Assembly (NCBI GenBank): GCA_026994965.1
Contig: JALWPO010000331.1
Span: 1-38,389, forward strand
Source of the DNA: Mariprofundaceae bacterium
Lineage (GTDB): Bacteria; Pseudomonadota; Zetaproteobacteria; Mariprofundales; Mariprofundaceae
Reading direction: 5' to 3'
DNA: 38,389 bases
A program made the translations under genes and the position numbers. The notes under the pieces were generated by a model. It saw only the letters and a list, made by a program, of their open reading frames with translations, did not search any database and was not told the DNA's origin. This document shows positions 1,896-6,915 of this stretch, one piece after another; position 1 is the stretch's first letter; every line of letters starts with the position of its first letter.

Positions 1896-4739
1896 TTAAC
1901 TTTTCCCAATCACAATCAACTCCACAATACTATCACGATGCTGTAGCCATGATTGTCTGGATACAGGATTACCAAATGGATTAAGCACAATTTGAAACTG
2001 CCTTAAGCATGAAAAATCTTCTTCTCGCGGAAAGATTCTGCGAATTGTATCTTGGACAGGGTCAGACCAAATAAAACTATCCTTTAAGCGATATCCAATC
2101 CAAACATAACCTTGCGCGAGTAAACTTGCGAAAAGATTCTCTGCATTTTCAGGTAATACTTGCCCCACATGAAGCGCAAATAAATTCATATTATCACTTT
2201 CACCAACATCACCCATTAAATCATCAATACTATGCCTTAGCACACGCTGTAATTCATATGAACCTTCATTCTCTGATGCATACATATGAAAACTGGTATG
2301 TGCCAAATAGGTACCATAAAACTCATCAGGCACAGTAACATGAATCTCCCATGGAAAATCAAACCTCTCCAATTCTTGCTGCAACAAACGCGCTTGCTCT
2401 CGATCATCCATCACAGGGAAAATATCTGGATTACCATCTTGCTCATGAACAATCGTGACCAAATGCGAAAGTACTGTTGAAATGCCAGCATAGCCCTGTG
2501 CTTTAGCACGTAAAGGACGCGATAAAAGAATACGTTCTGCTTTTTGAACATACGGGCGTAAAAAATTCATATCTGTGAAATTCCAGCGTACAACTTCCGC
2601 TTGAATACGCTCAGAAGCGCCTGGGGTTTCTGCACACCGACGTTGTAGGTATGCCATCTGACTTTCCATCTCCTCCTGAGTTAAATCATCAATCAGCGTT
2701 ACATACACCATATCAAATTCATCTAATAAACGTTGGAGCAAGAGTGGTAAACTTCCTATCCAACCTGTAATCAGTAAATTCAATGATTTTCCATGTAATA
2801 ATGGCTTAATACCTGTGGTATCAAGATTATTCTTAGGCGCTTGCAATGCATGCAATTGTTTGATGGTGTAAAAGGTTTCAGCATGCAGAGCATTGGCGTT
2901 CATCGCTATACCAAGCAAGGATGGAACAACCATGGGTATATCCAATGCATCAAGGTCAGAGAGTGGATACACACTGCCTTTTTCATCCACCAATGCCACC
3001 AAAATAACGCCTCTAAGTAATAACCTTGATGCCAATGTGATAAGATTCATCTTTTGCGCTTGATCAGGTAACGATAATGTAAGTACCCCATCAGAGGATT
3101 CCAACACACCACCCCATTCAGCTACTTGTAATGATGATTCTTCGGTTCGCTCTGGAATCATCAAGCGCTCCATCACCTGATCAAAATCACGATATACCAG
3201 AATATTGCGAAATATATTAGCCCGCACATCGGCTTGGGAATGCACTACCGTTGGTTTATTATAAAAATCTTTGTTATCCCAACCAATTTGCAGCATATGA
3301 TGATGTGAATCCAAATGGGGATGCGCCATCCCTGGTGTTGCGTAATTAATATAAATATCTGGATTGACTTTACGAATCGCAATCAATGAAAATGTTGCCA
3401 ACGCGAGATTATCTGCACTGCTATGCCCATCAGGTATAGATACAATCGCTTGCCTTGCATGCTTTAAATTAACACGTTCCAAGGCTGACACCTCTTCCAA
3501 ATGTCCATACCGATAAGATACCCAAGAATGCTCAATAAGCTCTTTAGGCATTTCCTCTTGATTATGAAGAATCACCAGTTTCAGTTTGGAAAAACTTCTT
3601 TCAGATATAGTTTTTAATTGTGATAAAATAAATGGTGCTACTGATGACCAACCCAACATGACCATATGATTAGTGATATTCAAACGCTCATTACGCAATT
3701 TTGCCATCAATCCAGATACAATACTGGCACCAATACCAATAAAAAATGCAAAAATAAATACGCCTGTGATAACAGCAACAACAGAGAAAATAGCGATTTC
3801 TGTATTTTCTGGATAAAAGATAGAGTTGCCAGGATCTGTGAATAAGCGAAATGAAAACCAAATCGGCGCCAACATACCTTTATCTGCTGCATCAATACCA
3901 CCATTCTGGTCATAATCAAAGGAGCCCATAGTGTAATGTCCAAACACTCCACCACCAATGGATAATACTGCTAACAGTAATACAATCAGGTTAATTTCTT
4001 GCATAAACTGACCTTCTCGCATCACTTCTTTTAAGTTACGAATAATCACCATCCAAGGTCTGAGTAGGCGAATCAATCGTAACATACGCAATGCGCCGCC
4101 ATATGGAATCACAGCAAAGGCAGGAACCATCACAATGGTAGCAATCAAATCAATGCCCCAAAATATCCATTCAGATATTTTATCTTTTTTACTTTCAAAT
4201 TGAATATTTCGCATAATCAAAAAGCGAATCGCCAATTCCACACTGAAGAAAATAATCGCAATCCACATCAATGTATCTTGCGCAAAGAAGGAAAGTAAAA
4301 TAATCAATGATATAAGCATGCCATAGGTGGGTGAATACATGGCACTTTGCAAATCTATATAACGGAACATGCGCAAGGTACGCAATAAATATACAGCTCG
4401 AATCAAGCGTGCTGCAGCCAAATTTTCGCCATCCAGTGGAATATTAAAAATAGTAATCAATAATGATGCAATACCAATCATATCAAGCACTAAAAACAAA
4501 GCGTCAATTTTTTGATTTAATGATGAGCGATAAGGATTGGTTCGCCGCTTATTGAGCATAATCGCAAGTCGTAACCCCAGTTCCATACAAAAGAATAAAA
4601 ACAATGCTGCTGCCAAAATACGATTATGCGTAAAGGATAAAGCAATCAAGCCCATCATCATAAAGCCAAACCGTGGATGCATCAGCACCCATTCCATATG
4701 ATGATAAAACAATGCGCGATCACTAAAAACAGATTTCAT
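1896..4739 (-). CDS. Large ion channel: tandem voltage-sensor-like domains, one pore, RCK/CASTOR-POLLUX-like tail
   Basis: This 947-residue protein is predicted in the inner membrane. I read ten hydrophobic segments: block one at about 24-127 with an S4-like helix (R111, R114, R120, R123, R126, mostly every third residue); block two at about 138-235 with another (R218, R221, R224, R227); then S5 (about 247-270), a pore loop (WFSFRLFTDPGN, about 294-305) and S6 (about 313-343). The pore lacks the TVGYG potassium filter; the xDPGN form resembles bacterial relatives of plant CASTOR/POLLUX channels. An EF-hand-like loop lies at 275-286, between S5 and the pore. The cytoplasmic half has two Rossmann-like RCK units, starting near HMVMLGWSSVAP (358) and LNLLITGWIGSLP (about 655). 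The ion is unknown. It is probably monocistronic, downstream of oxyR. Confidence 0.8.
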   Translation of the reverse strand: MKSVFSDRALFYHHMEWVLMHPRFGFMMMGLIALSFTHNRILAAALFLFFCMELGLRLAIMLNKRRTNPYRSSLNQKIDALFLVLDMIGIASLLITIFNIPLDGENLAAARLIRAVYLLRTLRMFRYIDLQSAMYSPTYGMLISLIILLSFFAQDTLMWIAIIFFSVELAIRFLIMRNIQFESKKDKISEWIFWGIDLIATIVMVPAFAVIPYGGALRMLRLIRLLRPWMVIIRNLKEVMREGQFMQEINLIVLLLAVLSIGGGVFGHYTMGSFDYDQNGGIDAADKGMLAPIWFSFRLFTDPGNSIFYPENTEIAIFSVVAVITGVFIFAFFIGIGASIVSGLMAKLRNERLNITNHMVMLGWSSVAPFILSQLKTISERSFSKLKLVILHNQEEMPKELIEHSWVSYRYGHLEEVSALERVNLKHARQAIVSIPDGHSSADNLALATFSLIAIRKVNPDIYINYATPGMAHPHLDSHHHMLQIGWDNKDFYNKPTVVHSQADVRANIFRNILVYRDFDQVMERLMIPERTEESSLQVAEWGGVLESSDGVLTLSLPDQAQKMNLITLASRLLLRGVILVALVDEKGSVYPLSDLDALDIPMVVPSLLGIAMNANALHAETFYTIKQLHALQAPKNNLDTTGIKPLLHGKSLNLLITGWIGSLPLLLQRLLDEFDMVYVTLIDDLTQEEMESQMAYLQRRCAETPGASERIQAEVVRWNFTDMNFLRPYVQKAERILLSRPLRAKAQGYAGISTVLSHLVTIVHEQDGNPDIFPVMDDREQARLLQQELERFDFPWEIHVTVPDEFYGTYLAHTSFHMYASENEGSYELQRVLRHSIDDLMGDVGESDNMNLFALHVGQVLPENAENLFASLLAQGYVWIGYRLKDSFIWSDPVQDTIRRIFPREEDFSCLRQFQIVLNPFGNPVSRQSWLQHRDSIVELIVIGKS

Positions 4740-4865
4740 ACAAGCCCCAATATCCCATAAATTATCTTTATGGGGTTTGTAGCAGGATTAATGCCATATC
4801 AATTGAGCAAGTAAGGGTATTTCTTAGTAATACGGATTGCAGAATAAAGCATTGAAAAATAAAGG

Positions 4866-5771
4866 TTAACTGTGCTCGGTTGTTTTGATAAGTATATCAC
4901 CTAACAAACGAAACTCATCAGCACGTGCAGAGCCTTTGCGCCAAGCAAGCCCAATTTGACGGTGCATATGTTGGGGAAGTTTTAGAAGTGATATATTGGA
5001 ATCTTTTACCATCAAGGAATTTTTTGCCATTTCAGGAATAAAAGTGACGCCCAAATCACTAGCTACCATTTGTAATAACGTCTGCAGGCTGGTGGCAGCA
5101 AAGCGACTGATTTGCTCTAAAGAGCGCAACTGACATGCCTCTAAAGCATGATCCCGCAAGCAATGCCCATCATCCAGCAGCAGAAGACTTTCTTTAGGCA
5201 GATTTTGAATATCAAATGCATTCACATCACCTTGAAACCATTTGGAATGATGATGATATGCCAATAAAAATGCATCCTCAAAGAGTGTGATGCTTTCCAC
5301 ACCCTTTAAATCAAAAGGCAAAGCAACCAAAATAACATCCAGCCTTCCCGCTAAAAGCTGCTCATGCACAACATGGGTTTTATCCTCACGCAAATAAAGC
5401 TGTAAATTGGGGTGCTCCCGTAGCAATTTAGGCATAAATTCAGGCAATACAAAAGGCGCAATACTGGGAATCACCCCCAAAGTGATTTTGCCACTCAACG
5501 GCTCTTGGCTACCTGAAGCTAATTGCATCAAGCTATCCAATTCAGATGTACAAAGCCTAGCTTGGCGCACAATAGATAATCCAATATCTGTGAACACCAC
5601 TTGTTTATTGGTTCTATCCACCAATTGTACGCGTAGTTTATTTTCCAGCTCTTTAATAGCTGTGCTGAATGCCGATTGTGAGATATGACAGGCTTTGGCA
5701 GCTTGCCCAAAATGTTTATATTCATCCAACATAATAAGGCATTGTAATTGTTTTATGGTAGGGTATAGCAT
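4866..5771 (-). CDS. oxyR: LysR-type hydrogen peroxide sensor OxyR
   Basis: This 301-residue LysR regulator has an N-terminal winged helix (HFGQAAKACHISQSAFSTAI) and a C-terminal effector domain. The motif DDGHCLRDHALEAC places Cys204 and Cys213 nine residues apart, the same spacing as the redox pair Cys199/Cys208 of E. coli OxyR, so this is a peroxide sensor and not a generic LysR. The frame is open to 5816, but family alignment begins at MLYPTIKQLQCL, so I use the ATG at 5771. It is transcribed divergently from the cytochrome c peroxidase gene, across a gap of about 160 bases that should carry its operator. Confidence 0.92.
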   Translation of the reverse strand: MLYPTIKQLQCLIMLDEYKHFGQAAKACHISQSAFSTAIKELENKLRVQLVDRTNKQVVFTDIGLSIVRQARLCTSELDSLMQLASGSQEPLSGKITLGVIPSIAPFVLPEFMPKLLREHPNLQLYLREDKTHVVHEQLLAGRLDVILVALPFDLKGVESITLFEDAFLLAYHHHSKWFQGDVNAFDIQNLPKESLLLLDDGHCLRDHALEACQLRSLEQISRFAATSLQTLLQMVASDLGVTFIPEMAKNSLMVKDSNISLLKLPQHMHRQIGLAWRKGSARADEFRLLGDILIKTTEHS

Positions 5772-5934
5772 CCAACATACCCTAAACTTATCATCTATAA
5801 AATCAATTATTACCATCTAAACAATCAATTTTATATTCTATCATACTCAAACTATACTTCGCCACATTCAAGCCATGTATACCAAGTGGATTGCATGCTT
5901 GATATACAAATCATTAACCTAAAAGGAGCTTATG

Positions 5935-6915
5935 ATGAAGAAAATAATCGGGCTAATATGTTTGTCTTTCCTAGGAATACATACAACTCATGCAGCCAAT
6001 ATTCCAGAAGGTATGGGTGTGCTTCCAACGCAAGTGCCTGTACCAGCAGACAATCCCATGAGCACAGAAAAAGTCGAATTGGGTAAAAAACTATATTTTG
6101 AAACCGCTATTTCCAAAAGTGGACATTTTTCTTGTAATTCATGCCACAATCTAGCGACTTGGGGCGTAGATAATCAGCCATTCTCGATTGGACACAAATG
6201 GCAACGTGGTGGTCGCAATGCACCCACTGTATTAAACTCTGGGTTTTGGAGTAAACAATTCTGGGATGGTCGTGCGCCATTGCTGGAAGATCAAGCCAAA
6301 GGTCCGCCATTAAACCCAGTTGAAATGGCATCCGATAGTGAAGCGGCTGTGATCGAACGTCTCAAAGATGCAGGCTATACACCTTTGTTTGATAAAGTTT
6401 TTGGTCCACATTCATTAAATTATGATAATATGGCAAAAGCCATTGCAGCATTTGAGCGAACATTGAATACACCCAATGCACCTTTTGATAAATTTGTACA
6501 AGGCAAGGGCGATATTTCTAAGGCTGCCAAACGCGGTATGCATAAAGTGGCTGAAATTGGCTGTACCTCTTGTCATTCAGGGCCTTTATTTACCTCAAAT
6601 GAATTTGTGAATTTCCAGTATGGTCAAGATACAGGTCTAAAATCGGTAACAGGTAAAGATGAAGATGATCATGTGTTTCGCGTTCAATCTTGGCGCAATG
6701 TGGCAATGACCGCGCCCTATTTCCATGATGGCTCTGCCAAAACATTGGAAGAAGCCGTGAAAATCATGGCAAAAGTACAATTGGATACCGAACTATCAAA
6801 ACAAGATGTGTCCGATATTGTTGCATTCTTGAATACATTAACAGGTGAAGCACCTAAAATCACTTTACCTATACTCCCCCGCCCTACAGGCAAAGCCTTG
6901 GATTGGGCTGAATAA
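5935..6915 (+). CDS. Di-haem cytochrome c peroxidase (CcpA/MauG family)
   Basis: This periplasmic enzyme of about 326 residues reduces H2O2 to water with electrons from small c-type cytochromes. It has a Sec signal peptide (KKIIGLICLSFLGIHTTHAA), a first haem site CNSCH (about residue 68), a second haem site CTSCH (about 211), and the conserved segments GRNAPTVLNS and TAPYFHDGS of the family. The ribosome site GGAG at 5925-5928 is 6 bases from the ATG at 5935 and only 3 from the ATG at 5932, so I prefer 5935. Divergent oxyR next door implies peroxide induction. A strong terminator follows. Confidence 0.92.
   Translation: MKKIIGLICLSFLGIHTTHAANIPEGMGVLPTQVPVPADNPMSTEKVELGKKLYFETAISKSGHFSCNSCHNLATWGVDNQPFSIGHKWQRGGRNAPTVLNSGFWSKQFWDGRAPLLEDQAKGPPLNPVEMASDSEAAVIERLKDAGYTPLFDKVFGPHSLNYDNMAKAIAAFERTLNTPNAPFDKFVQGKGDISKAAKRGMHKVAEIGCTSCHSGPLFTSNEFVNFQYGQDTGLKSVTGKDEDDHVFRVQSWRNVAMTAPYFHDGSAKTLEEAVKIMAKVQLDTELSKQDVSDIVAFLNTLTGEAPKITLPILPRPTGKALDWAE

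Follow-up and report, generated by a model that had tools for sequence, protein, structure and literature searches.

The window (the whole 38,389-nt stretch of DNA analysed here), part of a metagenome-assembled genome from the Zetaproteobacteria, marine bacteria that oxidise iron, carries a gene whose predicted product places two successive voltage-sensor domains, VSD1 and VSD2, ahead of a single pore and a tail of two RCK-like units (Table 1). We call its family A: orthologues of equal length, sharing 50-80% identity with the window protein, occur in the window's own taxonomic order. A longer paralogue of about 1200 aa, family B, has a copy (L002) in the same genome. In the window protein, the loop charges obey the positive-inside rule for a topology of four, four and two transmembrane (TM) helices, which puts the two S2-S3 loops in the cytoplasm and the turret in the periplasm. 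Next to the gene lie an OxyR-type LysR regulator-like gene and a divergent cytochrome c peroxidase-like gene (4866-6915), with no evident link to the channel, and the neighbours also include a rhodanese-like protein; these names come from reading the sequences.

Table 1. Features of the tandem-VSD channel gene and of the region upstream of it (window coordinates).
Feature	Residues	Coordinates	Strand	Basis
Putative sigma-54 (-24/-12) site TGGCATTAATCCTGCT, 57 nt before ATG		4781..4796	(-)	9/12 consensus positions; shuffle p 0.015
Tandem-VSD channel gene, family A	947 aa	1896..4739	(-)	Open frame, ATG start
VSD1, S1-S4	22-127	4359..4676	(-)	F50xxE53, D86 and R ladder invariant; KCNQ2/KCNQ5 S2-S4 profile match; AF2 four helices
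S4 of VSD1	R111/R114/Y117/R120/R123/R126	4362..4409	(-)	46/46 in family A; mostly retained in family B
VSD2, S1-S4	137-234	4038..4331	(-)	F165xxE168, D197 and R ladder invariant in family A; with pore matches KvAP S1-S6; homologous to VSD1
S4 of VSD2	R218/R221/R224/R227	4059..4088	(-)	46/46 in family A; only R218 and R221 remain in family B
S5	246-270	3930..4004	(-)	AF2 helix 246-270, low confidence; aligned to KvAP S5
EF-hand/dockerin-like acidic loop DYDQNGGIDAAD in turret	275-286	3882..3917	(-)	Pattern in 23/24 family-A and 4/4 family-B sequences
Pore helix and filter APIWFSFRLF-TDPGN	291-305	3825..3869	(-)	Conserved; resembles CASTOR filter
S6	315-350	3690..3797	(-)	Most hydrophobic segment; AF2 helix 315-350
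RCK1-like unit (HMVMLGW...)	approx. 358-600	2940..3668	(-)	Weak Pfam TrkA_N, E 0.035; family profile matches MthK, CASTOR, DMI1, BK
RCK2-like unit (LLITGWIGSLPLLL...)	approx. 651-945	1905..2789	(-)	Second Rossmann-like motif, conserved in family; limits inferred

In the usual picture of a voltage-gated channel, each pore domain has one sensor. The original prediction for this gene had instead placed two successive four-helix blocks, each with an S4-like helix, in front of one pore, and this was borne out by the presence of both ladders in 46 of 46 homologues, by an internal duplication and by profile matches. The nine ladder arginines lie exactly where they had been expected (R111/R114/R120/R123/R126 and R218/R221/R224/R227), and every one of them is an arginine without exception in the 46 distinct family-A sequences; R/K234 comes after the second ladder. 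The prediction had not mentioned the charge-transfer centres, F50-x-x-E53 with D86 in VSD1 and F165-x-x-E168 with D197 in VSD2, which are invariant in the same 46 sequences. Each family-A protein carries the voltage-sensor signature (F-x-x-E in S2, D in S3 and a basic ladder in S4) twice, as had already been seen for both of its blocks when 24 family-A proteins were aligned with 4 of family B. When residues 1-357 were shuffled, two such ladders arose by chance in 8 of 20,000 permutations.

Comparison of VSD1 with VSD2 by hhalign gave a probability of 96.8% (E 2.6e-10, 27% identity), whereas either block aligned against the pore, as a control, reached just 0.1-0.2%. At the level of their alignments, therefore, VSD1 and VSD2 are detectable tandem duplicates. 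The remainder of the predicted architecture also held: we found one pore loop, one S6 and two Rossmann-type units, and conservation, the internal duplication and PDB profile matches to KCNQ, KvAP, MthK and CASTOR all support the 4+4+2 layout with its RCK-type tail. Computation thus establishes the two-sensor layout, its origin by duplication and its conservation.

Searches against Ion_trans, CASTOR/POLLUX and TrkA-N profiles had been suggested as a check. Family member L031 scored above the Pfam Ion_trans (PF00520) cut-off over VSD2 and the pore (33.9 vs 25 bits), but the window protein itself matched neither Ion_trans nor Castor_Poll_mid (PF06241), and Pfam returned for it only the sub-threshold TrkA_N listed in Table 1. 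NCBIfam held no match for the window protein, and a single-sequence search of the PDB with it found nothing credible. PF06241 was not found in 61 genomes of the class either, in a search where no positive control gave a signal. Family profiles reached further into the PDB sequences. With the profile of the whole TM region, KvAP came first (VSD2 through S6) and KCNQ2 next (VSD1), and a VSD1-only profile again found KCNQ5 and KCNQ2, over S2-S4. The top matches of both searches are voltage-gated channels, at modest E-values (0.005-0.02).

Structure prediction delivered one part of what had been hoped for. VSD1 alone, modelled by AF2 with both repeats as alignment rows, folds as four main helices (pLDDT 75, pTM 0.67). 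The model of residues 1-360, built with seven close homologues, has the expected helix order (S1-S4, S1-S4, S5, pore helix, S6), but its pLDDT is 51. Foldseek found nothing significant with this poor model (best E 0.47), nor with the VSD1 model, whose best TM-scores, about 0.54-0.57, were to CaV3.3 and NALCN; many channels stood near the top of the Foldseek lists, none of them significant. Since the support from AF2 and Foldseek is weak, the structural claim rests on sequence.

The two ladders have fared differently in the paralogue. Homologues in which one ladder is not conserved were to count as refutation of the original prediction; both ladders are kept throughout family A (46/46), but ladder 2 is half lost in family B, which touches that condition. 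There, R224 has become V, I or L and R227 has become N (once D), leaving R218 and R221, and F165 is mostly lost. Ladder 1 is mostly kept, with R126 in 16 of 20 sequences, R120 in 19 and the remaining arginines in all 20. Since family B retains ladder 1 but only half of ladder 2, the better conserved of the two sensors is VSD1. The C-terminal extension of family B matched no Pfam family.

On this comparison of sequences, the second sensor can decay, and the two-sensor claim is tempered to that extent. One could then suppose that VSD1 is the sole working voltage sensor and that VSD2 is chiefly a structural connection to the pore, like the S1-S4 of TRP channels, making the protein effectively a one-sensor channel with a spacer. 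Family B, with two arginines left in ladder 2, F165 lost and the VSD1 ladder largely retained, lends this some weight. The gene studied here, however, belongs to family A, where none of 46 sequences departs from the four arginines of ladder 2, from F165, E168 or D197, and the ladder has KvAP-like arginine spacing, and we regard the one-sensor explanation as unlikely, if the least unlikely of the alternatives.

Behind the sensors, the filter region reads W-F-x-F-R-x-x-T-D-P-G-N, without TVGYG. Its D-P-G core, including D302, is kept in 42 of 46 family-A and 20 of 20 family-B sequences, the family-B filters differ among themselves at the last position, and S6 is strongly conserved. One locus (L061, G036:C127:7302-13128) holds a tandem pair of family-A channel genes, the second of which (L031) has the filter MAAGN, without the Asp, in place of TDPGN. 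The periplasmic turret loop ends directly in the pore helix; its D275 is invariant and its D286 is D or E in 65 of 66 sequences, and it may be an external Ca2+ site. In the tail, a family profile matched the RCK domains of MthK, CASTOR, DMI1 and BK among PDB sequences, the CASTOR match falling in RCK1 at E 0.007. The RCK2-like unit had no profile match of its own and was identified by motif only.

We then asked where such genes occur. Matches to the TM profile were present in 55 of 299 genomes drawn across the phylum, every one of them in the window's order (Mariprofundus relatives). A pattern scan of 85,462 species found this group alone, and it reaches close relatives only; a search of the class around genome G045 (48 genomes), run without a positive control, found no channel. 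The named carriers include two cultured organisms, Mariprofundus ferrooxydans PV-1 and M. erugo. Two family-A copies, L022 (G029:C105:888-3642) and L030 (G026:C21:16197-19021), are split in two frames and appear to be pseudogenes or assembly errors.

In M. ferrooxydans and M. erugo the channel gene sits between a motE-like gene (with an MgtE_N domain) and fliK, in the order fliF-fliG-fliH-fliI-fliJ-motE-channel-fliK-flgD-flgE (genes checked with Pfam), and this order recurs, whole or in part, at 15 of 27 distinct family-A loci. Loci with the channel embedded in this series are L032:16-13709, L051, L053, L054, L055, L065-L068 and L070. Family B directly follows an MCP gene at 15 of 17 loci, including that in the window's own genome, and forms the operon MCP-channel-cheY-cheA-cheW-cheY-cheB (the genes after the channel were identified by Pfam, in the one operon checked); loci of this che-operon type are L071:809-11139, L072-L080, L084-L087 and L002:5-4260. 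Extra family-A copies in two genomes (L069 and L088) adjoin cheA, cheW and MCP genes. Across 41 genomes of the order, the channel and FliF occur together in 24 and are both missing from 14; 1 genome has the channel without FliF, and 2 have FliF without the channel (Fisher P 4.8e-8; a 39-aa fragment in G010 is left out). These genomes are not independent, so relatedness inflates the P value and the association is in part phylogenetic inertia. Several genera are mixed, the channel and FliF being present together or absent together.

In the window and several congeners, the channel gene lies outside the flagellar operon. The copies that apparently start their own transcript are considered as a separate group, one that was drawn up only once the data had been seen. 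Of these 14 stand-alone family-A genes, 12 have a sigma-54-type site in the 180 nt upstream, defined by a match to 9 or more of the 12 consensus positions and by GG and GC ten bases apart, versus 0 of 12 inside flagellar operons. The background among neighbouring genes is 16%, itself raised by flagellar genes and MCPs, many of which have such sites. For the window itself, this site is the only link to flagellar or che genes; none of its neighbours is a motility gene. By computation, then, the channel genes are linked to flagellum and chemotaxis, and their place inside these operons suggests a direct route from membrane voltage to the control of swimming.

The same neighbourhoods could be read in another way, with the protein as a non-conducting voltage sensor or scaffold of the flagellar/chemotaxis apparatus whose pore is vestigial and whose RCK ring signals to partners. 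Such a role would suit family B in che operons beside MCP, CheA and CheW, family A among basal-body genes, and the variable last filter position of family B. The retention of D-P-G and the strong conservation of S6 are instead what a conducting pore would call for, and we think this role improbable. Equally hard to sustain is a housekeeping channel for osmotic or pH homeostasis that came to lie with motility genes through chance operon history. The regulator, peroxidase and rhodanese-like neighbours of the window gene, none of them motility genes, speak for it; two paralogue families in two different motility operons, joint loss with FliF within genera and the sigma-54-type sites at stand-alone copies speak against it. 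Finally, proteins such as L027 (64-1743), with one S1-S6, a TVGYGD filter and an RCK domain, do exist in the phylum, but the notion that ours too is a conventional voltage-gated channel, with one sensor, an RCK domain and an N-terminal extension that has been misread, is already contradicted by an N-terminal block that is homologous to the second and has a complete VSD signature of its own in all homologues, and can practically be set aside. L027, an ordinary single-sensor voltage-gated K+ channel from another family, is a useful comparator.

Thus, we hypothesize, with reasonable though not high confidence, that the gene encodes a cation channel that is gated by voltage and by a ligand, belongs to the motility regulon and has two functional-type sensors per subunit; its gating, selectivity and oligomeric state are inferred, without electrophysiology. 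The hypothesis is backed by charge-transfer centres and ladders invariant in 46 sequences, the homology of VSD1 and VSD2, the profile matches, a filter Asp as in CASTOR, the operon context, the co-occurrence with FliF, the sigma-54-type sites and the precedent of NaVBP. It is weakened by the modest PDB E-values, the poor TM model, the lack of an Ion_trans match for the window protein and the position of its gene outside the flagellar operon, as well as by the two FliF genomes without the channel and the one channel genome without FliF.

Our model envisages an inner-membrane cation channel, probably tetrameric, with two tandem sensors per subunit and eight per channel. Each subunit would contribute one pore domain, whose filter contains an Asp and resembles that of CASTOR, and two RCK-like domains on the cytoplasmic side; the RCK-like domains of all subunits would build a gating ring of eight lobes. 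The S4-S5 linker would connect VSD2 to the gate, as in KvAP. VSD1, lying outside VSD2, would act either by moving VSD2 or by setting the range of voltages. A cytosolic ligand (Ca2+ or a nucleotide) would exert further control through the RCK ring, and periplasmic divalent cations would do so through the turret loop. The membrane potential also powers the flagellar motor; a change in it would produce a cation flux or a conformational change in the channel and so adjust swimming or chemotaxis (energy taxis). No electrophysiology exists; that the channel is a tetramer, is gated by voltage, selects among ions, responds to a ligand and acts on behaviour is all inferred. The strongest form of this proposal, with two genuine sensors per subunit (eight per tetramer), a CASTOR-like Ca2+/cation pore, a double-RCK ring and a sensor duplication that arose in Zetaproteobacteria as a dedicated voltage input to flagellar motor and chemotaxis, seems to us evenly poised between right and wrong.

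With a natural VSD-VSD-pore subunit one could test directly how a gate is coupled to its sensors, and whether a second sensor adds charge or splits the voltage range. The intact second sensor of family A and the decayed one of family B offer a natural comparison, and the location in flagellar and chemotaxis operons gives a genetic handle on the question whether bacteria steer by an electrical reading of their own membrane potential.

The architecture had been predicted to be new, and in the open-licence PMC papers, to which our literature search was confined, we found no earlier description of a subunit with two VSDs and one pore, nor any account of a channel encoded within flagellar or che operons. 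Among its closest known relatives are KvAP and other Ion_trans (PF00520) channels, in which S1-S4 with an FxxE/D centre and arginines at every third residue likewise precede S5-P-S6. VSD2 and the pore align with KvAP from end to end, and the KvAP ladder has the spacing of VSD2; those channels, however, have one VSD per pore and TVGYG, against two VSDs per pore and TDPGN in family A. The VSD1 profile matches S2-S4 of KCNQ2 and KCNQ5 (Kv7), with a common ladder R-R-x-R-R-R whose third position is Y in VSD1 and Q in KCNQ, but the likeness is limited to the sensor, as pore and tail differ. BK/Slo1 joins a voltage sensor and pore to a tandem RCK gating ring, of the kind inferred for family A, yet it has one VSD (plus S0) and a TVGYG K+ filter instead of TDPGN, and only RCK1 shows weak similarity.

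The pore and the tail, whose second RCK unit is inferred from a motif, resemble those of the plant nuclear Ca2+ channels CASTOR, POLLUX and DMI1, where a non-TVGYG filter with the core D-x-G-N and an essential Asp is followed by tandem RCK domains (PMC6697748). CASTOR is Ca2+-selective with the filter AD265S(A)GNHA, and D265N abolished its activity and current (PMC6697748). The filters AD[SA]GN and TDPGN are similar, not identical; the window protein has no Castor_Poll_mid match, and CASTOR has four predicted TM segments, unlike the 4+4+2 of family A. We know of no arginine-rich S4 in CASTOR.

A tie between voltage gating and motility has been described before. According to PMC4225499, which cites Ito 2004, the voltage-gated channel NaVBP takes part in the motility and chemotaxis of alkaliphilic Bacillus, and the bacterial Na+ channels NaVBP/NaChBac share this tie with ours. 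They have six TM segments, one VSD and no RCK, unlike family A. To our knowledge, they have not been found in flagellar operons. Two-pore channels and the four-domain Nav/Cav channels also carry more than one VSD per polypeptide, but they repeat the entire six-helix unit, whereas family A repeats the sensor only and keeps one pore. The VSD-VSD-pore arrangement is a variant within the voltage-gated channel superfamily, not a new kind of channel.
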